64,000 nt of DNA from Kineosporia mesophila (lineage in GTDB: Bacteria > Actinomycetota > Actinomycetes > Actinomycetales > Kineosporiaceae). The DNA lies in contig NZ_JAJOMA010000012.1 in the NCBI RefSeq assembly GCF_021129235.1, positions 1 through 64,000 of the forward strand. The letters are read 5' to 3'. The position numbers and the translations under genes are program-made. The number at the start of each line of letters is the position of its first letter. The first letter of the stretch is position 1. Below are positions 1,116-29,826 of this stretch, in pieces. The notes under the pieces were generated by a model. It was not told where the DNA came from, did not search any database, and saw only the letters and a list, made by a program, of their open reading frames with translations.

Positions 1116-1134
1116 AATGGGAATGATTACCATT
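1116..1134. promoter_or_regulatory. Zur-box-like palindrome upstream of ferredoxin
   Basis: The 19-base sequence AATGGGAATGATTACCATT is an almost perfect inverted repeat: outer arms AATGG/CCATT, inner arms AAT/ATT around a central G. Its core AATGATT is shared with two other palindromes in this cluster (9802-9816 and 23387-23401). Those two match the streptomycete Zur operator form TGAAAATGATTTTCA closely; this copy matches about 11 of 15 core positions. It lies about 100 bases before the ferredoxin start, so it probably controls that gene. Zur binding is inferred from sequence. Confidence 0.65.
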
Positions 1135-1236
1135 AGCCGACAAGAGGGCGAAGAAGCGACGAAGCCGCGTCCCACCGAGGGTGCGCGAGGCGAGGGTTGC
1201 CGAGTCCGCGGCCGGCCGACTGGAAGTGGATGCATC

Positions 1237-1431
1237 ATGAGGGTTTCCGTTGATCAGGACCGGTGCGTGGGTGCCGGGCAGTGCGTGCGATGGGCGCCGG
1301 AGCATTTCGAACAGGACGAGGAGACCGGGATCATCCGGCCGTTCGAGGGAGAATTGACGATCAAGATGGGGACCGGGGTCGAGGGAGCAGTCCGGGCCTG
1401 TCCGTCCGGTGCCCTGCGGTTACGGACCTGA
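1237..1431 (+). CDS. [3Fe-4S]-type ferredoxin
   Basis: A 64-residue ferredoxin of the kind that feeds electrons to actinobacterial cytochromes P450. The cluster ligands are visible: C10 and C16 in DRCVGAGQC, and C56 in RACPSGAL. This C-x5-C...C-P pattern, with alanine or glycine replacing the second cysteine, is typical of single [3Fe-4S] ferredoxins. The reading frame extends upstream, but the ATG at 1237 places the canonical MRVSVDQDRC at the N-terminus and has GGAAGTGGA upstream, so I take it as the start. It converges on the first NRPS gene across a strong terminator. The only P450 nearby is 17 kb away (18554-19813), and both lie within the same set of Zur-like boxes, so they are likely partners. 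Confidence 0.9.
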   Translation: MRVSVDQDRCVGAGQCVRWAPEHFEQDEETGIIRPFEGELTIKMGTGVEGAVRACPSGALRLRT

Positions 1432-1440
1432 AGCGATGAC

Positions 1441-1477
1441 AGAAGGGGGGCCGGCCGTGAAGGCCGGCCCCCCTTCT
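1441..1477. terminator. Bidirectional hairpin terminator
   Basis: A perfect 16-base-pair inverted repeat (arms 1441-1456 and 1462-1477) with a GTGAA loop lies between the convergent ferredoxin and NRPS genes. The stem is GC-rich and lacks a long T tract, as is usual in high-GC actinobacteria. Confidence 0.85.
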
Positions 1478-1488
1478 GCGGTCAAGGG

Positions 1489-4400
1489 CTACAGAACTCC
1501 TTCGTCCGCCTCCAGGTCGAGGTCGGCTCCCGAAACTTCGAGGTGGCGAGCCAGTCCGGCCAGGCTCGGGGTGGCGAACAGATCACGGGCCGACACCGGA
1601 ACGCCGAAACGCTCGCGCACCGCGGCCACCAGACGCAACGCGGCCAGGCTGTCGCCACCGGCGGTGAAGAAGCCTTCGTCGGGATCGATCGCGGTCGTTC
1701 CGACGGCTTCTGCCCACAAGGGACTCAGCGCCTGCTCGCACGAGGTCAGCGCACGTCTCCCGTCCTGTGCGGTCCTGGTCTGCTGCCCGCTCTCGGTGCT
1801 GATGGCCAGGGCCAGGAGCGCGCCGCGGTCGACCTTGCCGTTCGTGGTGAGCGGCAGCGATTCCACCCGGGTGATCCGGGTCGGGACGGCGTGAGCCGGC
1901 AGTACGGCCAGCAGAGCATCGCGGATCTCCTGGACCTCGTCGGGGGAACCGCTACCGGACTCCAGCACGGCGTGGAGGGTTCGGCGGTTGCGGGCTCCGG
2001 GAGCCACGACCACGGCCCGGTTGACGCCGGGCAGGCTCTCCAGGGCGGCCTCCACCTCGCCCAGCTCCAGGCGGTGACCGTTGATCTTGACCTGGTGGTC
2101 GGTGCGGCCCAGGAACTCCAGGGTGCCGTCGGGCCAGAAACGGCCCAGGTCGCCCGTCCGGTAAAAGCGTTCGCCGCCCACCGGGACAAAGCGTTGAGCC
2201 GTGCGATCCGGATCGCCGCGGTAGCCCCGGGCGACACCGCGTCCGCCGATCCACAGTTCCCCGGGCACCTGGTCGGGAGAGTCCTGACCAGACGGGCCGA
2301 CCACGCGGTAGTGCTGCCCGGTCAGTGCGAAACCGTACGGGATGGACGTCCACTGTCCCGGCACGTCGCGGACCTCGAAGGAGTTGGACCAGATGGCGGC
2401 CTCGGTGGCGCCGCCCAGGGCGATCAGCCGGGTGTGCGACGAGGTGGCGCGGCGCAGCCGGTCGGCCAGATCCAGGGGAACCCAGTCGCCGGAGACCAGG
2501 CCGAGGCGCAGGCTGCCCGGCAGTCCGCCGGTGCCCGCCTCGGTGATCAGGAGGTCCAGCAGGGCCGGCACGGTATTCCAGACGCTGACCCGGTGCGTCG
2601 TGAGGTGACTCAGCCAGCGAGCGGGGTGGCGGCGCGCCTCTTCCGAGGGGATGACCAGGGTGCCACCGGCGCCGAGCACCCCGAAGATGTCGAACACCGA
2701 CAGGTCGAACTCGAGCGAGGACAGGGCCAGAACCCTGTCCTGGGGGCCAACTCCGTAACGAGTGATGATGTCGCGGCAGGTGTTGGCCGCCGCGTCGTGC
2801 GTCATCTCCACCCCCTTCGGCTCGCCGGTGGAGCCGGAGGTGAAGATGACGTAGGCCAGGTCGGAGGGACTGACCGGTACCGGTGGCACCGAAACATTCG
2901 AAACATTCGAAACCACCGATGCGGCAAGGTTCTCGGTGATCACCTGGGCAACGCCCGCCAGCCGGTACAGCCGGTCCCGGCGTGCGGGGGGTGATGCCAC
3001 CGACACCGGGACGTAGGCAGCACCGGCGGCCAGCACCCCCAGAGTTGCGGCGATCTGCTGCGGACCCTTGGGCAGGGCCACCGCCACGAGATCGCCTCGC
3101 CGTACGCCCCGGCCGATCAGCAGACCGGCCCAGCGGCCGATGTCCTGAGCCAGTTGCCCGTAGGTGGTCACGGGCGCGCCGGGCTCATCGGCCGCGATCA
3201 GGGCGGGGTGATCCGGTGAGCGCCCGGCCCGTTCCAGGATCGGGGTCAGGAGAGTGGCGGGAGGACCGCCGGTGCCCGTGGCCGAGACCCGGTCGCGCAC
3301 CTCACGCTGGGCGGTGGGCAGCAGGTCGGGCAGGGGTTCGTTCCAGTCGTTGCCCGCCAGCCAGGTCAGCAGCGAGAGGTAGGCCTCGAACATGGCGTCC
3401 AGAACGCCCTCGCGCAGGAGGCCCTGAGCGCTGTCCCAGGTGACCTGCAGTCCGCCGCGGGAGGGCAGCACCTGATTGTCCAGGCACACCTGCGGTGACT
3501 GCGAGAGTCCCCAGATCGGCTGGGGGAAGCCGGGGGAGCGGTCCATGCTCACGCCGTCGCCCACGCCGATCGCGCTGGTGAACACCACGGGTACGGGCTG
3601 GACATCGCCCTGGGCGGTGGCCAGCCGGCGAAGCAGCCAGGAGGCGGGCACCTGGCTGTGGTCCAGGTCCTCACCGGTTCGCCGGTGTACCGCACGCACC
3701 GCCGCGGCGAAGGTGGTCTGTGCGTCGCGCCGGTACCCGGCCGGTGCCAGGGTGGTGAAGTCACCCACCGTGCGGTCGATCTCGGGGTGCACGGGGCGCC
3801 GGTCGAAGCGGGTCAGCGTGACGGTGACCCCGGTGGTTGCGCTCCAGCGGGCCAGGACCTCACCGTAGGCCGCCAGGAGCAGCGACGGCACGGTCACCTT
3901 CGAGATCCGCGCCCGGTGCCGCAGAGCCGCCCAGGTCGCGGGAGGCAGGAGCCGCTGGCGTCGTTCGAACCGCAAGCCCGACGTGGTCGCGGGCTGCTGC
4001 AGCAGCGGCAGTTCGGGTGCCGGAGGCAGATCGGCCAGACGTCGTTCCCAGTGGGCCAGGTCGTCGGGGTGAGGTTCGGAGTCCGCCTGGGCCAGGACGT
4101 AGTCGCGGAACGAGGGCCCGACCGGGCCGAGGTCGGCGCCGGGGTCGGTGTACAGGGTGTCCAGCTCGGTCAGCACCCGCATGATCGACAGGGCGTCGAG
4201 GACGATGTAGTCGTAACCGATCCCCAGCCGGGTGCGGGTTCGCCCGTCCTGCCGGTACCGGACGGCGGCGATCTCCACCAGTGGTCCCCGCTCCAGGTCG
4301 ACCAGGCGGTGCGACAGGCGTTCGCGCAGATCGGTCAGGGCCTGGCTCGGGTCGGTCTGGTCAGTGGCGTCGGCCACGTCAATCCGCACCGGTGCCGGCT

Positions 4401-7400
4401 GCTCGGGGATCCGCTGCTGTGCGTCCTCGATCACCGCGTGCAGCATGTCGTGGCGAGCGGCGACCGCGTCCCAGGCCGCCTGGAGGCGGTCCAGATCCAC
4501 GTCGACACCGTCGAACTCGTTGTACTGCCAGGTGCCCACGCCGCCCAGTGGCATCTCGGGGTTGCGGCCGGTCAGGTAGGCCCGCTGCACATCGGTCAGA
4601 GGGAAGGGGGAGTGACGCTCGGCGGACCCGTCGCCGGAGCCCAGCACCAGCGTCGGTGCAGTTCCCGATGAAGCACCCAGGGCCAGGCCCCGGCAGAAGT
4701 CGGCCAGGCGCGGGCGGGAGAAGACGGCACCCAGGCCGGCTCCGCCGGCGCCCAGCCGGTTCAGGGCCACGAGCAGGCGGGTGGCCAGCAGCGAGTCGCC
4801 ACCGAGGGCGAAGAAGTCGTCATCGCGGTGGACGGCGTCAAGACCCAGGACTTCCTGCCACGCGGTCGCGACGGTGCGCTCCAGGGGTGTTCTGGGTGCC
4901 TCCCCGGCGGGGGCTTCGGGGCCGGCCGTCAGCAGGAGGGTCCGGACGGCCTGACGATCCACCTTGCCGTTGCGGTTCAGGGGCAGGGCGTCGGTCGCGG
5001 TGAACCACGAGCAGCGCATGTGGGCAGGTAACCGCTCAGCCAGCCAATCGTCCAAAAGCAACGAATCATGGTGATGTACAACGACAACGAGGGCCGCCAG
5101 CTGTGTGCTCGCACCGGCCGGCACCGCCTGGACGGAGGCCGCGACCACTCCGGGGTGAGCCGTCAGCGCGGCCTCGACCTCGCCCAGTTCGATCCGGTGC
5201 CCGCTGACCTTGACCTGATGATCGGCCCGCCCGGCGAACTCGAGCCGGCCCCCGCTGCGCACCACGGCCAGGTCCCCGGTGCGGTACCAGCGTCGTCCGT
5301 CGCTCTCAACGAACCGCTCAGCTGTCCGTGAGGGATCACCACGGTAGCCGGCGGCCAGTCCGGCTCCACCCATCCACAGTTCGCCGACGACGTCGTCGGG
5401 CCGGTCGCGCCCCTCGTCATCGACGACCCGGCAGGCCACCCCGTCGAGCGGAACACCCCATGGCAGGCTGGGATTCGTCGCGTCCCGATGATCGGGAAAC
5501 ACGTCGAGGACGGTCGAATGGATGGCGGCCTCGGTCATTCCGCCGAGAGCGGCGAAACGGCAGGCGGGAGCGAGAACGTGCAGGCGAGTCGGTAGATCGC
5601 CGCTCACCCGGTCGCCACCCAGCAGCACGGTCCGCAACGGCAGAGGACTTCCCTGCGCGGCGCGGAGCAGGAGGTCGAACACGGCAGGCACGGTGTTCCA
5701 GACGGTGACGCCGTGCTGCCGGACGGCCCGGTGCCAGGCGACCGGGTCGGCCCGGTGTTCCTGCGGCAGGACGACCAAAGTTCCCCCGGCGCTCAGGAGC
5801 CCGAACACGTCGTACACCGAGAGGTCGAACTCCAGGGCCGAGACGGTCAGGACGCGGTCGTCCGGGCCGACACCGAAGTACCGGTTCAGGGCGTCGATGG
5901 TGTTCGCGGCCGCGGCGTGGGAGATCTCCACGCCCTTGGGCTCACCGGTGGATCCGGACGTGAACAGCACGTAGGCAATGTCGGAGGGTGCCGAACGAGC
6001 CGTCACCGGTGTCCCCGGGCGGCCGGTGCTCCCGGAAGCGACGAGCAGAGGACGCGCGCCCGCGGCGGTCACGTCGTCGATGTGGTCGGGGTCGGTGAGT
6101 GCCAGGTGCGCACCCGAGGCGGCGTGGATGCGGGCCCTGCGGACGGCCGGCTGGTCCACCCCGACGGGGACGTACGTGCACCCGGCCAGGAGGATGCCCA
6201 GCACCGCGATGACCTGTTCGGCCCCCTTGGGAAGGGTCACCACGACGCTGTCGCCGGGTTGTGCACCGGCCGCCAGGAGGTCCCGGGCGGTCTGCTGGGC
6301 GAGATCGTGCAGATCGCGGTAGGTCAGGGTGTTGTCGCCATGGATCAGCGCGGTTCGTAACGGGTGAAGTAGGGCGTGGTCGAGAAAGGGGGCCTGCAGT
6401 GTTCGGGGCGGATGGCGTCGTGAGGTGGCGTCGAGAGCCGGTCGTTGCGGCCGGGTCACCACGACGTCGGTGCACTGCCACGCTGCGGGATCCTCGGCCA
6501 GGGCCGTGACCAGCGTGCGGTAGGTCTCGAAGGCGGCGCGGGCCGGGCCCTCCCGCAGGGCGTCCAGCCGCACGTCCCAGTTCAGCAGCAGGCCACCCTC
6601 GTGCTCGGTGACCTGGGCGTCCAGCCAGACCTGCGGTCCTTGCGAGACCGTCCACACCGGCCGGCCGAAGCACTCGCGGACCTCGGGGCCGTAGATCTCG
6701 CCCAGGCCCACCGCGCTGGTGTAGACCACCGGCGCCAGCACCGGAGCGCCGTTCCGCCGGGCCAGGTCACGCAGAACCTCGACGCCGCCGTAACTTCCGT
6801 GCGCGACGGCGGCATGCAGATCGGCGCGCACCCGGGCCGCGCGCTGCGCGAACGGCCTGCTGCCGGAGACGTCGACACCCAGGAGCACCGAGGAGGAGAA
6901 GTCACCGACCAGCGACTCCATCTCGGCAACGATCGGCTGGCGCGCGAACAGCGGCAGGTTGAGCAGGAACCGGGGCTGCTCGCACCAGGCACCGATGCTC
7001 TCGGCGAAGGCGGTGGCCAGCGCGGCCGAGAGAGTGACGCCGTGGGCTGCGGCGGCCCGACCGAGGGCAGCCGTCGTCTCGGGACTGGCCCAGTGGTGGA
7101 ACCGGACGCTGCGGGCCAGGTTTCCGGGGGCGCCGGCGTCCGGGCGCAGTGGTAGTCCCGGAGCGCCGGGCAGGTCGTCAGCACGCTCGGACCACCAGGC
7201 CCGATCCCGCTCGCGGGCCACGGCGTCAGTCGCCTCCCGGGCCCTCAGGTACTGCCGGTAGGTAGCTGGTGGCTGCGGTGCCGTCCAGGTGTCGTCGGTG
7301 TAGGCGCGGGCCAGGTCGGACACCAGGACGCGAAGGCTCAGGGCGTCGGCGGCGATCATGTCCAGGTCGATGTGCAGCCGCGTCTGTCCCTGCGGCAGCC

Positions 7401-8043
7401 GGCTGAGCTGAATATCGAGAACCTGACCGGCATCGACGTTCATCCGCCGGTGGGTCAGACGATCGCGCATCCGCTGCAGGACGTCACCGCGCTCGTCCGC
7501 AGTCAGGTGCTGCAGATCGTGCACGGTGATGTCGGCCCGTTCGGAGACCGCCGGGGGCTCGGTCCACTGCCGGCCCTCGGGGCTGACCCGCATCCGGAGC
7601 ATGCTGTGGCGCCGGACGACGTTCCGGAACGCCGTCCGGAGCCGGTCGGGATCGACACCTTCGCCGTCGAGCTCGACGTAGAAGTGCGCCGCGACGCCTC
7701 CGTAGGGCTGTCCGTCCTGGCGGCCGACCCAATACGCGTGCTGCAGGGTGGCCAGGTCGAACAGCGAGCCGTCATCGGGGTCGCCCGGGGCGGGCCCCGG
7801 CGTGGTGGGGGTGGTGGCGCAGGACGCGTGGATCGCCTTGCGCCAGCCGGCGGGCGTGGGATTGCCGACGAGGTCGGAGAAACCTACGTCCAGCCCGGCC
7901 CGGCGCCATTGGCCCACCAGCCGGATCACGGTCAGGGAATCCAGGCCGACCTCGAAAAGGTCGGTGTCATCGGTCAGCTCGGCCGGATCGAGGTCCAGGG
8001 CGGCCGCCAGGGCGGTGACCGGATCCAGGGAGAGGGGGCTCAT
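1489..8043 (-). CDS. NRPS: ArCP-Cy-A-PCP-Cy-A-PCP
   Basis: A 2184-residue nonribosomal peptide synthetase that receives salicylate and adds two heterocyclised residues. Domains: aryl carrier protein (about 1-75, GLDSL serine 36); heterocyclisation domain 1 (95-525, DMIAAD at 228-233 plus S236); adenylation 1 (550-1040, FTSGSTGEPKG at 694, catalytic lysine near 1027); PCP 1 (S1084); heterocyclisation 2 (1145-1575, DYIVLD from 1278); adenylation 2 (1600-2080); PCP 2 (S2132). The specificity pocket of adenylation 2 reads DLFNLSLIWK, the standard cysteine code. Adenylation 1 reads DLYNLGLIHK, which departs at two positions toward threonine-type codes, so its substrate is less certain (Cys, Ser or Thr). 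There is no embedded methyltransferase or terminal thioesterase, so the chain passes to the second NRPS at 9923. The ATG overlaps the stop of the salicylate ligase gene by four bases, indicating translational coupling. Confidence 0.95.
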   Translation of the reverse strand: MSPLSLDPVTALAAALDLDPAELTDDTDLFEVGLDSLTVIRLVGQWRRAGLDVGFSDLVGNPTPAGWRKAIHASCATTPTTPGPAPGDPDDGSLFDLATLQHAYWVGRQDGQPYGGVAAHFYVELDGEGVDPDRLRTAFRNVVRRHSMLRMRVSPEGRQWTEPPAVSERADITVHDLQHLTADERGDVLQRMRDRLTHRRMNVDAGQVLDIQLSRLPQGQTRLHIDLDMIAADALSLRVLVSDLARAYTDDTWTAPQPPATYRQYLRAREATDAVARERDRAWWSERADDLPGAPGLPLRPDAGAPGNLARSVRFHHWASPETTAALGRAAAAHGVTLSAALATAFAESIGAWCEQPRFLLNLPLFARQPIVAEMESLVGDFSSSVLLGVDVSGSRPFAQRAARVRADLHAAVAHGSYGGVEVLRDLARRNGAPVLAPVVYTSAVGLGEIYGPEVRECFGRPVWTVSQGPQVWLDAQVTEHEGGLLLNWDVRLDALREGPARAAFETYRTLVTALAEDPAAWQCTDVVVTRPQRPALDATSRRHPPRTLQAPFLDHALLHPLRTALIHGDNTLTYRDLHDLAQQTARDLLAAGAQPGDSVVVTLPKGAEQVIAVLGILLAGCTYVPVGVDQPAVRRARIHAASGAHLALTDPDHIDDVTAAGARPLLVASGSTGRPGTPVTARSAPSDIAYVLFTSGSTGEPKGVEISHAAAANTIDALNRYFGVGPDDRVLTVSALEFDLSVYDVFGLLSAGGTLVVLPQEHRADPVAWHRAVRQHGVTVWNTVPAVFDLLLRAAQGSPLPLRTVLLGGDRVSGDLPTRLHVLAPACRFAALGGMTEAAIHSTVLDVFPDHRDATNPSLPWGVPLDGVACRVVDDEGRDRPDDVVGELWMGGAGLAAGYRGDPSRTAERFVESDGRRWYRTGDLAVVRSGGRLEFAGRADHQVKVSGHRIELGEVEAALTAHPGVVAASVQAVPAGASTQLAALVVVVHHHDSLLLDDWLAERLPAHMRCSWFTATDALPLNRNGKVDRQAVRTLLLTAGPEAPAGEAPRTPLERTVATAWQEVLGLDAVHRDDDFFALGGDSLLATRLLVALNRLGAGGAGLGAVFSRPRLADFCRGLALGASSGTAPTLVLGSGDGSAERHSPFPLTDVQRAYLTGRNPEMPLGGVGTWQYNEFDGVDVDLDRLQAAWDAVAARHDMLHAVIEDAQQRIPEQPAPVRIDVADATDQTDPSQALTDLRERLSHRLVDLERGPLVEIAAVRYRQDGRTRTRLGIGYDYIVLDALSIMRVLTELDTLYTDPGADLGPVGPSFRDYVLAQADSEPHPDDLAHWERRLADLPPAPELPLLQQPATTSGLRFERRQRLLPPATWAALRHRARISKVTVPSLLLAAYGEVLARWSATTGVTVTLTRFDRRPVHPEIDRTVGDFTTLAPAGYRRDAQTTFAAAVRAVHRRTGEDLDHSQVPASWLLRRLATAQGDVQPVPVVFTSAIGVGDGVSMDRSPGFPQPIWGLSQSPQVCLDNQVLPSRGGLQVTWDSAQGLLREGVLDAMFEAYLSLLTWLAGNDWNEPLPDLLPTAQREVRDRVSATGTGGPPATLLTPILERAGRSPDHPALIAADEPGAPVTTYGQLAQDIGRWAGLLIGRGVRRGDLVAVALPKGPQQIAATLGVLAAGAAYVPVSVASPPARRDRLYRLAGVAQVITENLAASVVSNVSNVSVPPVPVSPSDLAYVIFTSGSTGEPKGVEMTHDAAANTCRDIITRYGVGPQDRVLALSSLEFDLSVFDIFGVLGAGGTLVIPSEEARRHPARWLSHLTTHRVSVWNTVPALLDLLITEAGTGGLPGSLRLGLVSGDWVPLDLADRLRRATSSHTRLIALGGATEAAIWSNSFEVRDVPGQWTSIPYGFALTGQHYRVVGPSGQDSPDQVPGELWIGGRGVARGYRGDPDRTAQRFVPVGGERFYRTGDLGRFWPDGTLEFLGRTDHQVKINGHRLELGEVEAALESLPGVNRAVVVAPGARNRRTLHAVLESGSGSPDEVQEIRDALLAVLPAHAVPTRITRVESLPLTTNGKVDRGALLALAISTESGQQTRTAQDGRRALTSCEQALSPLWAEAVGTTAIDPDEGFFTAGGDSLAALRLVAAVRERFGVPVSARDLFATPSLAGLARHLEVSGADLDLEADEGVL

Positions 8044-9737
8044 CGGTGGTGTCCCTTCGGAACGGATGTCAGAAGCGCTCGCAGGGCCTGCTTGTCGACC
8101 TTGCCGACGGGGGTGAGCGGCAGCCGGCTGATGCTGTGGACCTGCTGGGGTGCCTTGTAGGCCGCCAGACCGCGCTCGCGCAGGTGGGTCGCCAGGGCGC
8201 GCACGCTCGGTGCGGGACCGTCGTGGACGAGGACGGCCACCGCGGCTTCACCCCAGTCCTGGTCCGGGATGCCGACAATGGCTACCGCACGGATCCCGGG
8301 CAGGTCGAGCAGGTGGTCCTCGATCTCGATGGCGGCGTACTTCTCGCCACCCCGGTTGATCTGGTCCTTTACCCGGCCGACCACGACGACGTGCCCGGTC
8401 GGAAGCCGGCGCACCAGGTCTCCGGAGCGGTAGTAACCGTCGGGGGTGAAGGCCGGGTCGGGCACCGGGCCGTTGTAATAGGCGCTCAGGGTGTAAGGCC
8501 CGCGCACCAGCAGCTCACCGGCCTGCCCGTCCGGGACCGGTGCACCGGATGCGGGATCGACGATCAGCAGATCGTCTTCCGGGCAGCTGGGCCGGCCCTG
8601 GGTGGTGGCGATCAGTTCCGGCTCGTCGTCCAGTGCGGTGTAGCAGATCAGTCCTTCGGCCATGCCGTAGACCTGCTGGATCCTTGCTCCCAGAGCCGGT
8701 CCGGCGACGCGGGCCAGCTCGTCGGGCAGCCGGGCGCCACCGACCTGCACCACCCGCAGGGAATGCAGGGCCTCGGGCCAGGTCTGGGCCTCGGCGAGCC
8801 AGTGGGGTACGAGGGCTGGGGTGAGCGCGGTGTGGGTCACACCCTCGGTCTCGATCAGGGCGAAGGCGGTGGCCGGGCTGGGATCGGGCGCCAGGACGAC
8901 GGTTCCGCCCGAGGCCAGGGTGCCCAGTACGCCGGGGCAGGCCAGAGTGAAGTTGAAGCCGATGGGCAGTACGGCCAGATAGACCGTGTCCGGACCGACG
9001 TCGGCCGCGGCTGCACCGAGTTCCGCAGTGAGCAGGTAGTCGGTGTGGCTTCGCGGGATGAGCTTCGGCCGGCCGGTGGTGCCACCGGAGATCAGCAGAA
9101 GGGCCAGGTCGCCGGGGGCCGGACCGTCGGGGTCGTCCGGATCGGGTCCCTCGACGGGCAGGAGCCGGCGACCCGGTCCGGGCGCGGGAACCGGGCCGTG
9201 ATCGAGTTCTTCGTCCAGATCGGCCAGCGAGACCCGATGCGGTGTGCCGGCCTTCCCGGCGACGATGACCGTGGGTGGGGCCAGGCCCCTTTCCCGGAGG
9301 GTCCGGCCTACCTGGTCGGCCATCTCACGCAGGTCGAAGCTTCCCTGCCGATCGGCCACCACCAGTGCCGATGCTCCTGAAGTCGCTGCCAGATGGACGA
9401 TCTCGTCCCGCCGGTGGGCCGGCATCGCATGCACCGGCACGGCTCCCAGGCGCTGCAGGCCGAACCACACCCGCAGAAAGTCGGCCCGGTTCGGTAGTTG
9501 CACCACGACCCGGTCGCCCCGGCGCAGCCCGATCCGGGCCAGACCTGCTGCTATTCGGTCGGCGGCGCCGTCCAGAGCGGCGAAGGTCAGCCTCTCCTGC
9601 GGGTCCACGACGGCGGTGCGGTGGGGCCAATGTCGCGCCCATCGGCGCAACTCGCCACTGAGAGTAGCGCTCTTCCATAGCTGTGAGTACCCGGAACTGA
9701 TGGTGAAGAAATCGTTCACCGGGGCGGGGTCCGTCAC
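8040..9737 (-). CDS. Salicylate-AMP ligase
   Basis: A stand-alone 565-residue adenylating enzyme of the DhbE/EntE/PchD/YbtE family. It activates an aryl acid as the adenylate and loads it on the aryl carrier protein of the downstream NRPS. The phosphate-binding loop ISGGTTGRPK is at 216-225, YGMAEG is present, and the catalytic C-terminal lysine lies in PVGKVDK (about 546). In the substrate pocket, PIGFNFTLACPG supplies the conserved asparagine (N262) and a cysteine five residues later (C267). In this family cysteine at that position indicates salicylate, and serine indicates 2,3-dihydroxybenzoate. The start is GTG (9735-9737), giving MTDPAPVNDFF. The gene leads a two-gene operon with the first NRPS and is transcribed divergently from the second, from a region carrying a Zur-like box. 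Confidence 0.94.
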   Translation of the reverse strand: MTDPAPVNDFFTISSGYSQLWKSATLSGELRRWARHWPHRTAVVDPQERLTFAALDGAADRIAAGLARIGLRRGDRVVVQLPNRADFLRVWFGLQRLGAVPVHAMPAHRRDEIVHLAATSGASALVVADRQGSFDLREMADQVGRTLRERGLAPPTVIVAGKAGTPHRVSLADLDEELDHGPVPAPGPGRRLLPVEGPDPDDPDGPAPGDLALLLISGGTTGRPKLIPRSHTDYLLTAELGAAAADVGPDTVYLAVLPIGFNFTLACPGVLGTLASGGTVVLAPDPSPATAFALIETEGVTHTALTPALVPHWLAEAQTWPEALHSLRVVQVGGARLPDELARVAGPALGARIQQVYGMAEGLICYTALDDEPELIATTQGRPSCPEDDLLIVDPASGAPVPDGQAGELLVRGPYTLSAYYNGPVPDPAFTPDGYYRSGDLVRRLPTGHVVVVGRVKDQINRGGEKYAAIEIEDHLLDLPGIRAVAIVGIPDQDWGEAAVAVLVHDGPAPSVRALATHLRERGLAAYKAPQQVHSISRLPLTPVGKVDKQALRALLTSVPKGHHR

Positions 9738-9801
9738 GGTCTCTGCCGCCTCCCTCTGGCGTCATCGTGCTCAGCTGTGCTTGCATGAGGCTACCTGATT
9801 G

Positions 9802-9816
9802 TGAAAATCATTCTCA
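9802..9816. promoter_or_regulatory. Zur-box-like palindrome in the divergent NRPS promoter
   Basis: TGAAAATCATTCTCA on the plus strand reads TGAGAATGATTTTCA on the minus strand. Six of seven base pairs of the inverted repeat are intact, and it differs from the streptomycete Zur operator consensus TGAAAATGATTTTCA at one base. It lies between the salicylate ligase (start 9737) and the second NRPS (start 9923), so one site could repress both main biosynthetic transcripts. Zur control of the coelibactin cluster is established in Streptomyces coelicolor; binding here is inference. Confidence 0.8.
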
Positions 9817-9922
9817 ATTGGTAGGCGGCGTGAAAGTGCCGGACGTGACTCCCGGACCGATGTCCGGGCCGCCGGCCAGGTTTCTCGCGGCATGGCCGCG
9901 GGTGTGAAAGGACGGCATCCAC

Positions 9923-15463: not shown

Positions 15464-16671
15464 AGCCGATCGGAGTGCTGGGTGCTTCCGGCGCTGTGGG
15501 AGCCGCTGCCGTCGAGGCGCTGGTGCGTCTGCGGATCGGGCCCCTGAGGCTCGGCGCCCGCAATAGCGCCCAGGTAGCGAGGACCGCGCGGGAAGCCGGC
15601 CTCCGCGTCGTTGAAGGACCGTCCGGTGAGGAAGCCGTTGCCGAGGTGCTGGCGGTCGATGTCACCGACCAGCACCGGCTGCGGGAGTTCGTCCGTGGCT
15701 GCGTGGTGGTGCTGGACTGCACCGGGCCCAGTTATGAACTGGGAGAGGCGGTCCCGGTAGCGGCGCTGGCCGAGCAGGTGGCCTGTGTGCTGGTCACCGG
15801 GGAACAGCCGGTCCACGACGCCCTGCTGGCCCGCGGACCGGCACCGGTCCCCGTGGTGCTGTCGGCCGGGACGCTGCCCGGACTGTCCGGGCTGCTGCCG
15901 CGACTGCTGGCCGAGGCAGTCACGGGCCCGGACCCGAAGCCGACGGGGTCGGGGCCGGCCGGGCCCAGCGGTGACCAGAAGCATCCGGCTGTGGGTGCGA
16001 GCCTGGCGGTGTACACCGGTGGCCTGGAACGGGCGACCACGACCGTCGCGGCCGACCTGGTGCTCTCGCTCGGTGCTGCCGCCAGCGGAAACCTTTTCGG
16101 TGAGGCCGGTGCTGCGTGGCGCGAGGGTGCCCGGCGCTCGCGGGTCCTGACCGCGAACGAGGATGCCGAAGCACCGGGTTTCGAAGGTCGGGTCGGGATC
16201 CAGCCGTTCCTCAGCCGTGAGGCCGAGCGGGTGGCGGAGGCCCTGAACCTGCGCGACCTGGACTGGTATCACGTGCATCCGGGGGCCGCGGTCCGGGCCC
16301 GGCTGGCCACCCTGCCGGCCGCGCGGCACCGCGAGGTGCCGATGGAAGACCTGGTGGAGAGCATCCTGCGGGCTGCCGAGGTGGATCTCAGCGGTCGTAA
16401 TCCTCACTACCGCATGGTCTTCGAGATCACCCGGACCGATGGCCGTCAGCAGTCGCTGCTGGTGCGCAGTCCCGACAGCTACCGGCTGACCGGGGCCGTA
16501 GGTGCCTGTGCGGTCGCGCAGATTCTCAGCGGAATGGTCCGCTCAGGTTTACATTTCGCCGATCGCGGCCTGGATCCCCGGACACTGATCGAGCACCTGC
16601 GGCTGGCCGACCCGGGTACCCGTATCGACATCGTCGACGGTGGCGCCGAGGACGAAGAGGGAGTGCTGTGA
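15460..16671 (+). CDS. Saccharopine dehydrogenase-like NAD(P)-binding oxidoreductase
   Basis: A 403-residue protein starting with a Rossmann nucleotide-binding motif, GVLGASGAVG (residues 5-14), followed by LRLGARN and an acidic strand end (VVLDCTG). This matches the saccharopine dehydrogenase-like fold of putative oxidoreductases. Proteins of this type occur beside actinobacterial thiazoline-siderophore NRPS genes such as the coelibactin cluster. Its reaction is unknown; reduction or oxidation of a ring or of the released chain end is possible. The ATG overlaps the NRPS stop codon by four bases (ATGA), so it is co-translated with it. The C-terminal half (LSRNPHYRM-like region, RSPDSYRLTGAVGA) belongs to the catalytic/dimer domain seen in this family. 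Confidence 0.75.
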   Translation: MKPIGVLGASGAVGAAAVEALVRLRIGPLRLGARNSAQVARTAREAGLRVVEGPSGEEAVAEVLAVDVTDQHRLREFVRGCVVVLDCTGPSYELGEAVPVAALAEQVACVLVTGEQPVHDALLARGPAPVPVVLSAGTLPGLSGLLPRLLAEAVTGPDPKPTGSGPAGPSGDQKHPAVGASLAVYTGGLERATTTVAADLVLSLGAAASGNLFGEAGAAWREGARRSRVLTANEDAEAPGFEGRVGIQPFLSREAERVAEALNLRDLDWYHVHPGAAVRARLATLPAARHREVPMEDLVESILRAAEVDLSGRNPHYRMVFEITRTDGRQQSLLVRSPDSYRLTGAVGACAVAQILSGMVRSGLHFADRGLDPRTLIEHLRLADPGTRIDIVDGGAEDEEGVL

Positions 16672-18521
16672 CCGCGCGGGTCGTGGTCGTCGGCGGTGGC
16701 TTCGGGCGCATCCACGCCCGAGCGGTGGCTTCACGCCCCGACCGGTACCAGTTCGCAGGCGTCGCGGGACGAGGTGGTGCGGCATCCAGGGAACTGGCCG
16801 CCGTTCACGGTGTCCCGTACTTCGATCTGACGGACGGATGCGACGAGGCGGCCGAGGCCGCGGACGTGGCGTGTGTCGCGGTGGGCTCGGCCATCTCGGG
16901 TGGTGACGGCAGCGCTGTCGCCCAGAACTTTCTGGCCCGGAAGGTGCCCGTGCTCCAGGAACATCCGCTGCACCCGGACGAACTGCTGGCCTGCGCGCGG
17001 GTGGCCCGCGAGCACGGCGTGCAGCACCGGATGAACCTGCACTACCGGCACGTCCGTCCGGTCCGGGTTTTCATCGATGCGGCCCGGCGCCTGGCGCAGC
17101 GTTCCGAGATTCTGTTCGTGGACGCGGCCTCTCCGGTGCACGTGCTGCATCCACTCATCGACATCCTGGCGGCGGCGCTCGGTGGGGTCCGGCCGTGGTC
17201 CTGGAAGGATGTGGCGGGGTCGGGCCCCTTACGGTCGGTGACCGGCACGTTCGCCGGCGTCCCGGTGACGCTGCGCGTGCAGAACCAGCTCGATCCGCTC
17301 GACCGGGACAACCAGGCGCTGCTGTGGCACCGGATCGCGGTGGGTACGTCCGCCGGGGTGCTCACCCTCGCCGACACGCACGGCCCGGTGCTGTGGAGTC
17401 CTCGCTGGCATGCCGACCGGGACGAGCACCGGCGGCTGGTGACGGAAGGCCCGGGGGCTCAACGACTCGGGCAGTCCAGCACCACGGTGCTGCCCGGCAC
17501 CGACGCCGTGGCCATGGCCGAGGTCCTGGCGGACCGGTGGCCGGAGGCCGTGGATCAGGCCTTGAGCGGTCTGCTGGCGGCTGAGGGCTCCGATCCGCTA
17601 CGGCAGGCGCAACTCGATCTGTCCACCGCCAGGATCTGGAACGACGTGACCACGCATCTGGGCCCTCCGGAGAGGATCACTGCGCGGGCGCCGGTGAAGG
17701 TTGCGATCAGCGAACTGATGGACGATGTGGTCGCCGACGAAAGTGCCTCCGGTCAGCAGGAGGTTGCCGCATCGGGCTACTCCGTCGAGGCGGAGTTCTA
17801 CGACCTGATCGCCGGGCGGCGGACGACGTCGGCGAGCGAGGTGGTCAAGGCCCTGGCCGGGATCCGGCCGGAGGACGGGCCGGTCGTCGAGATCGGGGCC
17901 GGCACCGGCATCCTCACCATGGCCGTGGCGAAGGCCTGGCCCGGGGTGCGCATCATCGCGGCGGAGCCGGATCCACTGATGCGGGCCGTGCTCACTTCCA
18001 AGGTGGTGCGGGACGCGGACCTGCGCGAGCGCGTGAGCGTGACCGATGGATCCGCTCCGGACCTGGAGTTGCCCGAGCGCATCGGGGCGGCCCTGGTCTG
18101 TGGGGTGGCCGGGCACCTGGAACCTGAAGCACGGCAGACGTTGTGGCGCCGGCTGAAGGAAAGGATCGTCCCCGGAGGGCCACTCGTCGTGGAGCTGCTG
18201 TCCGTCACCGCCGGGGCCCGGTTCAGCGACCTGCGGCTCGGGCAGGCCCGGATCGGTCAGGACGACGTGCAGTGGTCGTTGTCCGTGGCTCCGGGCCGAA
18301 ACGGTGCCAGCCTGATGACGAGCAGCTGGCAGGTGTCGCGGGAGGGCTCGGTCCACCGGTCGGAAAGTGCCCATCACGTCTGGCGTCCGACCAGCCTTCG
18401 GGACATCGCCGCCGAGGCGGACCTGCCGCTGGTAACTCTCGTCGAGGGCGGCACGGAAGGTGCTGTACCGCTGGGGGTGCTGCGTTCGCCGCCCGACCCG
18501 GCCACCTCGTCCTCACTGTGA
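16668..18521 (+). CDS. Thiazolinyl imide reductase fused to SAM methyltransferase
   Basis: A 617-residue two-domain protein. Residues 1-355 form a Gfo/Idh/MocA-type NADPH reductase of the PchG/Irp3/YbtU kind, with VVVVGGGFGRIHARAV at the N-terminus and the QEHPLHPDEL segment at 97-106. Irp3/PchG homologues reduce one PCP-bound thiazoline to a thiazolidine during chain assembly. Residues 366-617 form a class I methyltransferase with motif I VEIGAGTGILT (407-417) and a motif II region AEPDPLMRAV. The C-terminal domain is clearly paralogous to the free-standing methyltransferase at 20589-21356; the shared stretches include VEIGAGTG, AGHLE/AGHLD and PPGG-type motifs. The GTG start overlaps the preceding stop. 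In characterised systems the reductase is a single domain, so the fusion is notable. N-methylation of the newly formed thiazolidine is a reasonable guess. Confidence 0.85.
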   Translation: MTARVVVVGGGFGRIHARAVASRPDRYQFAGVAGRGGAASRELAAVHGVPYFDLTDGCDEAAEAADVACVAVGSAISGGDGSAVAQNFLARKVPVLQEHPLHPDELLACARVAREHGVQHRMNLHYRHVRPVRVFIDAARRLAQRSEILFVDAASPVHVLHPLIDILAAALGGVRPWSWKDVAGSGPLRSVTGTFAGVPVTLRVQNQLDPLDRDNQALLWHRIAVGTSAGVLTLADTHGPVLWSPRWHADRDEHRRLVTEGPGAQRLGQSSTTVLPGTDAVAMAEVLADRWPEAVDQALSGLLAAEGSDPLRQAQLDLSTARIWNDVTTHLGPPERITARAPVKVAISELMDDVVADESASGQQEVAASGYSVEAEFYDLIAGRRTTSASEVVKALAGIRPEDGPVVEIGAGTGILTMAVAKAWPGVRIIAAEPDPLMRAVLTSKVVRDADLRERVSVTDGSAPDLELPERIGAALVCGVAGHLEPEARQTLWRRLKERIVPGGPLVVELLSVTAGARFSDLRLGQARIGQDDVQWSLSVAPGRNGASLMTSSWQVSREGSVHRSESAHHVWRPTSLRDIAAEADLPLVTLVEGGTEGAVPLGVLRSPPDPATSSSL

Positions 18522-18553
18522 TCGTCTCTGCCCGAACCAGCACTGAAGGAGCC

Positions 18554-19813: not shown

Positions 19814-20592
19814 CCGGCTCGTGGGTGCGGCGATTTCGCGAGCGTCCCGCGGCAGCGGTGCGCCTGGTCTGCTTCCCGCACGCCGGAGGGGGTCCTTCGT
19901 CGTTCCGGGCCTGGGACACCCTGCTGCCGGACTCGGTGGAACTCCTGGTCGCGGGCTATCCCGGCCGCGAGGACCGCTTCGGTGAACCGGCCGCGGGCAG
20001 CCTGGACGAGATGGGCCAGGCCCTGGCCGAGGCTCTGGTGCCGGTCCTGGACCGGCCGTGGATCGCCTTCGGGCACAGCATGGGCACCATCGTCGCGTGC
20101 GAGACGCTCCGGCACCTGCGGGAACTGGGTGTCCCGGAGCCGACCTGGCTGTATCTGTCCGGCCGGCGGTCGCTCGACCGGGGCCTGGGTGGTGCGGTGC
20201 ATCGGCAGGACGAGAACGGTCTGCGGGGCGAGCTCGAGCGTCTGGGGGGCACGCCGCCCGAGGTCCTGGACGATCCGGTGCTGCGGGCGGCGGTGCTGAA
20301 CAGTGTGCGTGAGGACTACCGTCTGGTCGAGACCTACCGGCCGACTCCCGTGCCACCGCTGGACTGCCCGATCCGGGTCCTGGGCGGGACGGACGACCCG
20401 GAACTGCAGGGTCCGGACGATGACGGCGCCTTCGGCTGGACCCGCTTCACCACCGGCCCGGTCAGCACCCGGATGTTTCCCGGCGACCACTTCTATCTCG
20501 TGCCCCGGCGGCGGGACGTGGTGAACGACGTGCTGTCCGTGCTGGATCCGGCCCTGAGGAGTTTGCGCTCGGCCTGGCTGGACGCCCCGTGA
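19810..20592 (+). CDS. Type II (editing) thioesterase
   Basis: A stand-alone alpha/beta-hydrolase thioesterase of 260 residues, the kind that clears mis-primed carrier proteins in NRPS systems (family of GrsT, PchC, YbtT). The N-terminus LVCFPHAGGG is characteristic. The nucleophile motif is GHSMG with S90, and the catalytic histidine is H227 in FPGDHFYL. The GTG start at 19810 overlaps the P450 stop (GTGA). The strongest use here would be to hydrolyse wrongly loaded aryl or aminoacyl groups from the PCPs of the two NRPS proteins. Confidence 0.92.
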   Translation: MTGSWVRRFRERPAAAVRLVCFPHAGGGPSSFRAWDTLLPDSVELLVAGYPGREDRFGEPAAGSLDEMGQALAEALVPVLDRPWIAFGHSMGTIVACETLRHLRELGVPEPTWLYLSGRRSLDRGLGGAVHRQDENGLRGELERLGGTPPEVLDDPVLRAAVLNSVREDYRLVETYRPTPVPPLDCPIRVLGGTDDPELQGPDDDGAFGWTRFTTGPVSTRMFPGDHFYLVPRRRDVVNDVLSVLDPALRSLRSAWLDAP

Positions 20593-21356
20593 CGGCGCTG
20601 AACCAGGAGGTGAGCGCCTACGGGGACATGGCCGAGTTCTACGAACTGGTCGCCGAGCAGCAGGCCGCCCGCAGCGGCCCGCTGCTGCGGCAGGCCCTGT
20701 CCGGACTCCAGGACGTGCCCGGCACGGTGGTCGAGATCGGCGCCGGAACCGGCCGGATCACCGAGATCATCGCTGAATCCGTGCCCGGGGCGCCGATTCT
20801 GGCGGTGGAGCCGGCGCCGGGGATGCGAGCGGTGCTGGTCTCGCGTCTGGCCGCGGACCCGGGCCTGCTCGCGCGCGTCACCGTCGCCACCGATGCCGCA
20901 CCCGATCTGGCTCTGCCGGAACGCATCCGGGCCGCGGTCGTGTTCGGCGTGGCCGGGCACCTGGACACCGACAGCCGCACCCGACTGTGGTCGAGGCTGC
21001 GGGAGCGGCTGTCGCCGGGCGGGGTCATCGTGGTCGAACTGATGGGGGTGCGCGGCGCCCGCGCACTCCCCGAAGCGCGGCAGTTGCGCGCCGGCATCGG
21101 CGATCACGTCTACGAGTGGTGGGTCAGCGGGAGGGCGGAGGAGGCGGGCGGCATGCGTTTCGCCTCGCGCTGGACGGTCAGCGACCAGACCGGACGCGTG
21201 CTGCGGGAGGTGCGCGGCGGGTACCTCTGGCACACCGTCGGGATGGAGGAATTGGCCCGGGAGTCGCGACTGCGGGTCACGGCGCTCGGTGGCCGCACCG
21301 GATCCGGGCTTCCCGAGGTCGCGGTTCTGCACCGGCACCGGGAAGGACAGTCATGA
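20589..21356 (+). CDS. SAM-dependent methyltransferase
   Basis: A class I methyltransferase of 255 residues with motif I VEIGAGTGRIT at 48-58, followed by an acidic strand (LAVEPAPGMRAVL). It is closely similar along its length to the C-terminal domain of the 16668-18521 fusion protein, including AEFYEL/AEFYDL, LPERI, FGVAGHL and the C-terminal W-H/W-R segments. A gene duplication inside the cluster is therefore likely. With the methyltransferase inserted in the second NRPS, this makes three candidate methyltransferase domains. The target (thiazoline C2-alpha carbon, thiazolidine nitrogen, or oxygen) cannot be read from sequence. The GTG start overlaps the thioesterase stop, and its stop overlaps the salicylate synthase ATG. 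Confidence 0.88.
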   Translation: MTALNQEVSAYGDMAEFYELVAEQQAARSGPLLRQALSGLQDVPGTVVEIGAGTGRITEIIAESVPGAPILAVEPAPGMRAVLVSRLAADPGLLARVTVATDAAPDLALPERIRAAVVFGVAGHLDTDSRTRLWSRLRERLSPGGVIVVELMGVRGARALPEARQLRAGIGDHVYEWWVSGRAEEAGGMRFASRWTVSDQTGRVLREVRGGYLWHTVGMEELARESRLRVTALGGRTGSGLPEVAVLHRHREGQS

Positions 21357-22663
21357 CGGACACCCTGACCTCAAGGACCATCCCGGCCGGACCCGGCGGC
21401 ATCGACGCCGTGGTCGAGGCCGCCGTGCGCCTGGCTGACGGTGGGCCGGTGGTGGTCTACGAGAACGGCGGCACGCTGCGCTGCGCGGTCGGCCTGCGGG
21501 CTGAACTGGTTTTCTGCGCGGACGTTCTCACCACCACCTGGTCCGACCCGGTGCCGCATCCGGATCTGGCCGATGTCGCGGGCGCCCTGTCGGCCTGCCC
21601 GTATCCGCTGTGGCGGGCCTTCGGGTGGGCGCGGTTCGAGCTGGCCCTGCACCGGGCGGGCCAGGAGAGCGGGGTCAGCGGGCAGGAACCGCTGCTTCAC
21701 CTGGTCCTGCCCCAGGTGGAGCTGGTCGTCGAGCGCGATGGCGGCCAGGTCGAGATCCGGGCCGCTGAGCCGGATCAGCAGCATTCGGCTCGGCAGGCGC
21801 TCGAACAGACGGTTCCGGTGGCCCCGCGCGGACCCGGACCCATCGAGGCCGACCTCCTGGCGGGGGCCGGCCCCTATCGGGCCGCGGTCGCCCGGGCGGT
21901 GCAGGACATTGCCACGACGCGGCTGGAGAAGGTCATCCTGTCCCGCGAGGTGCCGCTCGCCTCGGCCCCCGACCTGGTGGCCACGTTCCTGGCGGGACGC
22001 CGGGTGGTGACGGCGGCCCGGTCCTTCCATCTGGACCTGGGTGGCTGGCGAGCTACGGGGTTCAGCCCGGAGACGGTGGTCGAGGTGCAGGCGGACGGCC
22101 GGGTCAGCACCCAGCCGCTGGCGGGGACCAGGGCTCTGGGGCTGGGATCGGAGCGGGACGAGGCCAATCGGCTCGACCTGCTGTCGGATCTGAAGGAGAT
22201 CGCCGAGCACGCCACCAGCGTGCGGCTGGCCGTGCAGGAGGCGGAGTCGATCTGCGAGCCGGGATCGGTGCGGGTGGAGGACTTCATGAGCGTGCTCCCG
22301 CGCGGTGCCGTGCAGCACCTGGCCTCGCGGGTGGCCGGTCGTCTGGCGCCGGGCCGGGGTGCCTGGGACGCCTTCGGCACGTTCTTCCCGGCCGTCACCG
22401 CGTCGGGGATCCCGAAGGCCGAGGCCTATGAGGCGCTCGTGCGCCTGGAAGGTTCTGCGCGCGGGCTCTACTCAGGTGCGGTGATCGTCGCGGACCACAC
22501 CGGGGCCCTGGACGCGGCGCTGGTGCTGCGCAGCGTCTTCACCCAGCAGGGACGGTCCTGGTTGCGTGCGGGGGCCGGGGTGGTGGCGGCCTCGACTCCG
22601 GAGCGGGAGCTGGAGGAGACCTGCGAGAAGCTGCGGAGTGTGGCGCCTCATCTGGTGAGCTGA
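21353..22663 (+). CDS. Salicylate synthase
   Basis: A chorismate-using enzyme of 436 residues in the MbtI/Irp9/YbtS group, which converts chorismate via isochorismate to salicylate and pyruvate. Diagnostic pieces include LEKVILSRE with lysine 193 (equivalent to the catalytic base of MbtI), GFSPETVVEV (236-245), QPLAGTRALG (254-263), the magnesium-binding KEIAEHA (281-287) and GIPKAEA. It supplies the starter unit for the salicylate ligase at 8040-9737. The ATG at 21353 overlaps the methyltransferase stop; GGAAGGACAG lies just upstream. It is the last gene of the 9923-22663 operon and converges on the TetR gene. A tandem 19-base repeat covers its stop codon. Confidence 0.93.
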   Translation: MTDTLTSRTIPAGPGGIDAVVEAAVRLADGGPVVVYENGGTLRCAVGLRAELVFCADVLTTTWSDPVPHPDLADVAGALSACPYPLWRAFGWARFELALHRAGQESGVSGQEPLLHLVLPQVELVVERDGGQVEIRAAEPDQQHSARQALEQTVPVAPRGPGPIEADLLAGAGPYRAAVARAVQDIATTRLEKVILSREVPLASAPDLVATFLAGRRVVTAARSFHLDLGGWRATGFSPETVVEVQADGRVSTQPLAGTRALGLGSERDEANRLDLLSDLKEIAEHATSVRLAVQEAESICEPGSVRVEDFMSVLPRGAVQHLASRVAGRLAPGRGAWDAFGTFFPAVTASGIPKAEAYEALVRLEGSARGLYSGAVIVADHTGALDAALVLRSVFTQQGRSWLRAGAGVVAASTPERELEETCEKLRSVAPHLVS

Positions 22664-22687
22664 TCAGGATCTGGTGAGCTGGTCAGG
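22650..22687. repeat. Tandem 19-base direct repeat at a gene junction
   Basis: Two adjacent 19-base units (22650-22668 and 22669-22687) are identical except for one base. The first contains the last codons and stop of the salicylate synthase; the second contains the stop of the convergent TetR gene. It looks like a recent small duplication. No function is evident. Confidence 0.75.
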
Positions 22688-23384
22688 TCGCTGCGGCGTC
22701 GGCTCCCAGACCGGCCAGGATCCAGTTCAGGCCGGTCTCGAAGATCTCCTCGTCGTCGAGGGTGAAGAACTCCTGGCCGATCCGGGCCGTGACCGGGTGC
22801 CGTTCGGGGTCGATCGTGGTGAGTCCGCCGACGAAGGTGTCGGCGCGCTCGCCGCGGGGTGGGCCGGCCCGGTCCTCCACGGCCACCCGGCTGAAGGTCC
22901 AGCTCATGATCAGGGCCGTGCCGCGGGCCGTGCGGGCGTCATCGAGACCGGACCCGGCCAGGGCGGCGGCCAGGTTCTCGAGGAGGCGGTAGGCCTGCGG
23001 GCCGGCCGGGCCGTTCTCGATCAGCCAGGCGGCGGTGCCGGGGTACTGGCGCAGGACCGTCCGCTGGGCCCGGGCCCAGGCCCGCGCCCGATCGTCCCAG
23101 TCCGCGTGATCGGTCGTGTGGTCGCCGGCCACATCGTCCTCCCGTGCATCGCCCTGGGGTGCGGCGGGACGAATGTGGGAACCGATGCGGTCGACGACCA
23201 GGCGGGCGAGTTCCTCCCGGTCCGCGACGTGGCGGTACAGGGCCATCGCCGTCACCCCGAAGTGGCCGGCGACCGCTCGCATCGTCACCGCGGGCAGACC
23301 TTTCTGCCGGGCGATGTCGAGGGCGACCAGCACGATCGCCTCCTGGTTGAGGGTTTTCACCACCGAATCGTAACCGCCGGGCAT
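22683..23384 (-). CDS. TetR-family regulator
   Basis: A 233-residue regulator. The N-terminal helix-turn-helix is clear: ALDIARQKGLPAVTMRAVAG, then FGVTAMALYRHVADREEL (residues about 15-60). The C-terminal half fits the TetR ligand-binding fold (YRLLENLAAALAGSG, FETGLNWILAGL). The ATG at 23384 begins only two bases from the Zur-like palindrome at 23387-23401 and has no room for a ribosome site, so a leaderless transcript is possible. Alternatively one of the adjacent GTG codons at 23363/23360 is used. It is convergent with the biosynthetic operon and divergent from the importer operon, so it could respond to the metallophore or its metal complex. What it controls is not shown by the sequence. 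Confidence 0.88.
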   Translation of the reverse strand: MPGGYDSVVKTLNQEAIVLVALDIARQKGLPAVTMRAVAGHFGVTAMALYRHVADREELARLVVDRIGSHIRPAAPQGDAREDDVAGDHTTDHADWDDRARAWARAQRTVLRQYPGTAAWLIENGPAGPQAYRLLENLAAALAGSGLDDARTARGTALIMSWTFSRVAVEDRAGPPRGERADTFVGGLTTIDPERHPVTARIGQEFFTLDDEEIFETGLNWILAGLGADAAAT

Positions 23385-23386
23385 AT

Positions 23387-23401
23387 TGAAAATGATTCTC
23401 A
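23387..23401. promoter_or_regulatory. Zur-box-like palindrome between TetR and importer operon
   Basis: TGAAAATGATTCTCA differs from the streptomycete Zur consensus TGAAAATGATTTTCA at one base. It is the exact reverse complement of TGAGAATCATTTTCA, the same half-site arrangement as the copy at 9802-9816. It lies directly before the TetR start and 67 bases before the importer lipoprotein start, within an AT-rich patch (TATACATAGTA), so it could control both directions. Confidence 0.8.
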
Positions 23402-23468
23402 GTAGCGTGGTATACATAGTAAACATCCGGCCGTCGGCCGGATCTGATCGAGGAGATGAAGGGGTCGC

Positions 23469-29821: not shown

Positions 29822-29826
29822 CTTTC

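Follow-up and report, generated by a model that had tools for sequence, protein, structure and literature searches.

Zur-type boxes at three promoter positions of a coelibactin-type, probably metallophore-forming cluster in Kineosporia mesophila

The stretch of DNA analysed here (the window) comprises 64,000 nucleotides of Kineosporia mesophila, positions 1 to 64,000 of contig NZ_JAJOMA010000012.1, and carries between about 1.2 and 31.6 kb a nonribosomal peptide synthetase (NRPS) type cluster with ferredoxin, ligase, tailoring, TetR and ATP-binding cassette (ABC) transport genes, as assigned by Pfam, NCBIfam/TIGR and PDB-match searches. Three palindromic boxes resembling the operator of the zinc regulator Zur lie at its promoters. 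Two of them are strong: TGAAAATCATTCTCA (9802..9816) in the divergent AMP-ligase/NRPS promoter region and TGAAAATGATTCTCA (23387..23401) between the TetR and importer genes, both of which agree with the motif tGaNNatSatNNtCa at 11/11 specified positions. The third, TGGGAATGATTACCA (1118..1132), is weak, agrees at 9/11 positions and lies between a divergent kinase-like open reading frame (ORF; 444-974, minus strand) and the ferredoxin gene, within a 19-bp palindrome (1116-1134) in which 8 of the 9 arm pairs are complementary by eye. All three palindromes had been pointed out in an earlier sequence-only reading and were recovered at 1116-1134, 9802-9816 and 23387-23401; its statement that two of the sites are one base away from the consensus TGAAAATGATTTTCA is likewise correct, for 9802 in the minus-strand reading and for 23387. 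A sigma-70 consensus scan of two intergenic regions gave no promoter-like hexamers in either.

The first unit carries a 4Fe-4S ferredoxin gene (1237..1431, plus strand; Pfam Fer4_15, 1.4e-10). On the minus strand follow NRPS 1 (1489..8043), with two condensation-type, two adenylation and three carrier domains in Pfam, and an aryl-acid AMP ligase (8040..9737; AMP-binding, 1.3e-73), whose substrate is probably salicylate because the cluster also encodes a salicylate synthase. On the other side of the 9802 box the plus strand carries NRPS 2 (9923..15463), with a TubC docking domain followed in Pfam by condensation, adenylation (with an inserted methyltransferase), peptidyl carrier and thioesterase domains; a 403-aa ORF (15460..16671; NAD_binding_10 below its cut-off), possibly a saccharopine-dehydrogenase-like tailoring gene of SrbE type, homologues of which adjoin the reductase gene in relatives; a thiazolinyl imide reductase with a C-terminal methyltransferase domain (16668..18521; TIGR01761, 1.1e-80, over its cut-off, and Methyltransf_25); a cytochrome P450 (18518..19813); a stand-alone thioesterase with an estimated start (19840..20592; Thioesterase, 2.8e-36); a methyltransferase (20589..21356; Methyltransf_12, 9.2e-10); and the salicylate synthase (21353..22663; TIGR03494, 4.1e-128, over its cut-off). 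The TetR-family repressor gene (22683..23381, minus strand; TetR_C_1 and TetR_N, best PDB match the ActII/ActR protein, 3e-12) has an uncertain start codon. The importer unit on the plus strand encodes a family-5 substrate-binding protein of NikA/Opp/CntA kinship (23469..24983; SBP_bac_5, 1.6e-62), for which no NCBIfam model matched at its cut-off, two permeases (24860-25927 and 25924-26745; BPD_transp_1), a double ATPase (26742-28127; two stretches of ABC_tran) and a pair of fused permease-ATPase ABC proteins (28124..31584), the first of IrtA/YbtP-like, siderophore-importer type (PDB matches to IrtA, 4.8e-86, and to a YbtPQ chain, 7.9e-68) and the second with ABC_tran and ABC_membrane.

The closest solved relative of the P450 is 3tyw (4.3e-136, the next best match being 3.8e-81), which is CYP105N1, the P450 of coelibactin (PMC3430247). 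Judged by its predicted genes, the window cluster is a coelibactin-type NRPS metallophore cluster: it has a CYP105N1-type P450, an aryl-acid ligase, two NRPSs, an imine reductase, a thioesterase, an ABC pair and a ferredoxin. This list of features follows a figure legend (PMC3430247) and general background, and some coelibactin-like clusters are described there as having no P450 of the CYP105N1 type.

The genome encodes a likely reader of the boxes. Four matches to Fur-family proteins were found. A 130-aa ORF on contig C17 has as its best PDB matches 3mwm (1.3e-48), which we take to be S. coelicolor Zur, and M. tuberculosis FurB 2o03 (2.3e-40), and by this homology is a clear Zur. The best match of the protein on contig C13 is 3eyy, presumably the nickel sensor Nur, and the two remaining paralogues (C35, C21) match best Fur or PerR chains.

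Boxes of the same type stand elsewhere in the genome before zinc-type genes that are Zur targets in other organisms. Box TGAGAATGATCCTCA lies 50 bp upstream of znuA (ZnuA family). TGAGAATCATTTTCA precedes, by 20 bp, the gene of an MRF-like GTPase (MRF is its best-matching model, though short of the cut-off), and type-B L31 comes next; this combination is a typical Zur target. An L33-like gene, Cys-free and recognised by eye, is preceded by TGAGAATCGTTCTCT, and zur itself by TGGGACTCATTCTCA; a weaker box (16.0 on the matrix described below) lies between a divergent ABC-3 permease of ZnuB type and an ABC ATPase. Around a second ZnuA-like gene (C42) no site above 9/11 motif positions was found in 5.8 kb. 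The published 15-bp S. coelicolor Zur motif TGANNATSATNNTCA has 8 exact matches in the 7.78 Mb genome: the two strong window sites, those of znuA and MRF-L31, and four within coding frames predicted by a simple codon-bias ORF caller. In addition, 22 bp ahead of a 156-aa ORF that contains Cys and has no Pfam match (contig C1, locus L042, 1980-2450) stands a perfect palindrome, TGAGAACCGTTCTCA (22.4), a possible further Zur target.

For scoring, a Zur matrix was built from the four non-window sites before znuA, the MRF-like GTPase with type-B L31, the L33-like gene and zur. The boxes at 9802 and 23387 each score 28.1, a value expected about 0.001 times per genome under an independent-base model; the box at 1118 scores 18.0, for which the same model expects about 3 sites per genome and 0.025 per 64 kb, and it is therefore not exceptional on sequence alone. 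The genome-wide ranking relied on degenerate pattern searches and a 220 kb background sample, and sites outside these patterns can be missed; reversed-pattern controls returned 4, 28 and 6 rows against 36, 312 and 46 rows of pattern matches. The 47 ranked places came from the 36-row and 46-row searches, the exact TGANNATSATNNTCA matches and C17:16313, and the one-mismatch places of the 312-row TGANNATSATNNTCA search were scored in part. Within this set 9802, 23387 and the MRF-L31 site tie for first. As to many equal sites genome-wide, which the sequence-only reading had named as a danger to its proposal, both strong boxes come through the comparison with the MRF-L31 site as their only equal, and 1118 falls by its score, because 17 other places score at least 18.0. 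The background sample held a single site scoring at least 16, which may itself be real, given an ORF that begins 22 bp downstream of it.

Conservation within the genus adds to this picture. The cluster was found in 3/5 other Kineosporia genomes (ligase 72%), the other two having only ligase matches of 43-45%, and the three cluster-bearing relatives show the same gene order and 57-89% protein identity. When the three promoter positions are followed through the four Kineosporia genomes, a box of at least 18.0 is present in 12/12 cases. The ligase/NRPS box is identical in 4/4 genomes: all 15 of its columns are invariant, whereas outside the box 73/134 gap-free columns are. All four also have the importer box (28.1, 18.0, 28.1 and 21.6), with 11/15 invariant columns against 41/83 outside. 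Upstream of the 9802 box, a block around CTTGCATGA (window 9770-9800) is invariant in the four species and may be a promoter element or the site of another regulator.

The first box also lies upstream of the ferredoxin gene in 4/4 genomes, with 18.0 here and 26.0, 25.2 and 20.5 in the relatives. That the sites front the three units, as had been claimed, holds for K. mesophila; the correction concerns the three relatives, where a methyltransferase gene directly follows the first box and the ferredoxin comes after that gene, no such gene standing between box and ferredoxin here. For one relative (G006) the sameness of this methyltransferase to that of the others is assumed, and in another (G008, locus L119) its frame appears interrupted, so that with its absence here the gene appears as if it were being lost. 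Because stronger boxes hold the same position in three relatives, 1118 most plausibly represents a box that this promoter has retained. Next to the K. rhizophila cluster are a gene for an ArsR-type regulator and an ORF strikingly rich in His (locus L114, 2149-2996; G007:C7), with a Zur-like site at 2202; the two could be a pair acting as zinc buffer or sensor.

Outside the genus, 41 homologous loci were reduced to 24 actinobacterial ones by dropping a Kineosporia locus (L053) and 16 non-actinobacterial loci, and rows of the reductase-fused methyltransferase query segment were left out of the homologue comparisons. Of 12 loci with both P450 and MT2 homologues, 8 have a box of at least 16, each with at least one such box outside predicted coding frames, and column-permuted matrices (n=300) gave a mean of 0.25 such loci in this group. 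Among the 12 loci lacking a P450 homologue, an MT2 homologue or both, one has a box, a count equalled or exceeded by 25/300 permuted matrices. In Parafrankia soli the box (17.5) is likewise situated in the ligase/NRPS intergenic region. Three gammaproteobacterial loci of Symbiopectobacterium and Enterobacter (L066, L068, L074) combine reductase, thioesterase, ligase and salicylate synthase homologues with those of the family-5 binding protein and a permease, and their best matrix matches are AT-rich and Fur-like by eye.

Iron-repressor boxes are distributed differently. The window contains no match to the TTAGGTTAGGCTAACCTAA-type box of DmdR/IdeR at up to 3 or up to 4 mismatches, which bears out the earlier remark that no such site is to be seen in it, and the 220 kb background contains none at up to 4 mismatches either. 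The whole genome, which has two genes of iron-dependent repressor type (Fe_dep_repr_C), gives 8 matches at up to 3 mismatches, and the two that were inspected precede a Peripla_BP_2 protein and a FecCD permease. At up to 4 mismatches two iron boxes (C61:265723 and C61:269168) occur in a second salicylate cluster (C61:240001-276440; loci L120 and L121), one immediately ahead of MbtH, the other ahead of an ABC gene. In that cluster a salicylate synthase over its cut-off begins a 1589-aa ORF, and MbtH, an AMP ligase, an ABC-type pair recognised by eye and a 6008-aa ORF whose size suggests an NRPS are also encoded.

The S. coelicolor cluster was compared from published descriptions, and SCO7681 is presumably the AMP ligase. 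In the coelibactin cluster (SCO7676-7692) Zur was reported to bind at the SCO7676 and SCO7681/7682 promoters (PMC5472717), in agreement with the earlier statement that Zur control of coelibactin is established, and SCO7676 is a ferredoxin (PMC3430247); thus, two of the three Kineosporia sites reproduce a known arrangement. Further points of likeness are the P450, closest to CYP105N1, and the presence of an ABC transporter pair and metal-type transport genes (PMC3430247), and DmdR1 sites have been reported to be absent from the coelibactin cluster (PMC12161575). The Kineosporia cluster differs in having the importer as a unit of its own with a Zur box and TetR, whereas SCO7677-80 are listed beside the ferredoxin, and in the fusion of the reductase to a methyltransferase domain.

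Other systems share single traits with the Kineosporia cluster. Among solved structures, IrtA (mycobactin) is the nearest to the first of its fused ABC proteins, with YbtP of YbtPQ (yersiniabactin) also matched, and both of these systems are iron-regulated. The importer resembles staphylopine CntABCDF in combining a family-5 binding protein with two permeases and ATPases. It gives a match to the CntA model (1.8e-18), but the Kineosporia protein reaches 66 bits against a cut-off of 800, and the NikA and Opp models match better. The chemistry of [S,S]-ethylenediaminedisuccinate ([S,S]-EDDS) of Amycolatopsis japonicum is a different one. Its metallophore cluster was likewise recognised through Zur binding sites (PMC12161575). 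Reading the metal from regulatory sites has precedent (PMC12161575), and yersiniabactin can act as a zincophore (PMC8636617). The NRPS cluster of sorangibactin, from a myxobacterium, is described as coelibactin-like and includes a P450 and a saccharopine-dehydrogenase-like protein, but production of the compound is suppressed by iron and an iron adduct was seen; the word "Zur" is absent from that text (PMC10127202).

According to these data Zur very probably controls the cluster, to judge from its operator-like boxes. The zinc reading is supported by the Zur gene, by the matching boxes at znuA and the other genes, by the conservation and by the position of iron boxes on other genes. The cluster most likely answers zinc and not iron starvation, because the same switch precedes the zinc-uptake genes of the genome, and zinc is likely to be the metal of the product. 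From the sequence we infer Zur binding, the direction of the regulation, the zinc cargo and the TetR operator.

Several observations weigh against this interpretation. The four matrix sites were chosen because they resemble the motif, although the identification of the genes that they precede was a separate one. A score of 18.0 is reached by 18/47 ranked places including 1118, 17 of the other 46 equalling or beating it, and a window place inside a coding frame (56265) scores 19.0, above 1118. The cluster is carried by only three of the five other genomes of the genus, and the K. rhizophila site at 2202 (18.5) lies outside the three promoters and scores above the importer box of that species (18.0). 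One of the C61 iron boxes has a weak Zur-like site (18.5) 85 bp away. Outside the genus, 1/300 permuted matrices also reached 8/12, and the 12/12 grouping of the loci was drawn after the site list was known and is therefore descriptive. The suppression by iron of the coelibactin-like sorangibactin belongs here as well (PMC10127202).

The alternative that survives best accepts the Zur control and supposes that the product serves mainly another metal or role, such as copper or iron scavenging or signalling, Zur conveying a stress cue. Salicyl-thiazoline compounds bind several metals. Zinc coordination would not be satisfied by coelibactin as predicted prior to its tailoring (PMC3430247). Both transporter types nevertheless stand in the Zur-boxed unit, and in K. 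rhizophila the ArsR-type gene and His-rich ORF adjoin the cluster and may bear on zinc; we regard this alternative as rather unlikely.

Control of the boxes by another Fur-family protein (the Nur-like one of C13 or those of C35 and C21) or by an iron regulator, with a response to iron, nickel or peroxide, is highly improbable. The four Fur-family and two Fe_dep_repr_C proteins provide candidates, and the 7-1-7 palindrome is common to Fur-family operators. The iron response of sorangibactin production points the same way (PMC10127202). Against it, the motif marks znuA, type-B L31, the L33-like gene and, weakly, the divergent ABC-3 permease/ATPase pair, and the inspected iron boxes belong to other genes. 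Least credible of all, to the point of being nearly negligible, is that the cluster's own TetR uses the palindromes as its operators in all units, their likeness to Zur boxes being a coincidence: binding to palindromes at the own promoter is frequent among TetR repressors, and the TetR gene starts beside the 23387 box, but control by TetR alone was rejected, since Zur-type boxes of the same kind precede znuA, MRF-L31, the L33-like gene and zur elsewhere and since a different, invariant palindrome at 23410-23424 is a better candidate for the TetR operator.

That putative TetR operator, GTATACATAGTAAAC (23410..23424), is an imperfect palindrome eight bases after the 23387 Zur box. It lies in a block invariant in 4/4 Kineosporia genomes, is the most conserved stretch of the importer promoter and gives the only exact match to GTWTACNNNGTAWAC in the genome; it is probably the operator of the local TetR. 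The leader of the importer operon further contains an inverted repeat ATCCGGCCGACGGCCGGAT (window 23425-23443), flagged as terminator-like on the minus strand.

Under the preferred reading of zinc control through Zur, the cluster would work as follows. When zinc is sufficient, zinc-loaded Zur would sit on the 7-1-7 palindromes at the ligase/NRPS and TetR/importer promoters and more weakly before the ferredoxin, and all units would be shut. When zinc falls, Zur would leave and a salicyl-thiazoline-type metallophore would be made, the metal complex of which may be taken up by the family-5 importer, by the IrtA/YbtP-like pair or by both. At the importer promoter, TetR on the second invariant palindrome would form a second lock, one that the metallophore or an intermediate of the pathway may release. 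Such a promoter would have two keys, Zur sensing zinc hunger and TetR on the adjacent palindrome awaiting the metallophore or intermediate, and the family-5 importer would therefore be made only when both signals agree. That the genome holds two salicylate NRPS metallophores, one wired to Zur and one to the iron repressor, and that the importer needs both the Zur and the TetR signal, is put forward tentatively, as a combination that is quite conceivable but somewhat short of an even prospect.

A literature search gave nothing on Kineosporia together with zincophores; for Kineosporia gene clusters no article concerned this cluster by title among the matches listed, and none on Zur, zincophores, biosynthetic gene clusters and genome mining concerned this system by title. 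What is new here is the host genus, the importer as a separate unit that has a Zur box and a TetR to itself, and the presence alongside it, in one genome, of a sister cluster with iron boxes.

In summary, according to articles of 2012 and 2023 coelibactin had not been isolated, and its metal rests on regulation. Kineosporia provides a second genus with Zur boxes at three promoter positions, in 4/4 cluster-bearing genomes, and thereby a clean system for the zincophore question, in which the iron-boxed salicylate cluster of the same genome serves as an internal control. As predicted from the boxes, zinc starvation would be the growth condition expected to switch the product on.

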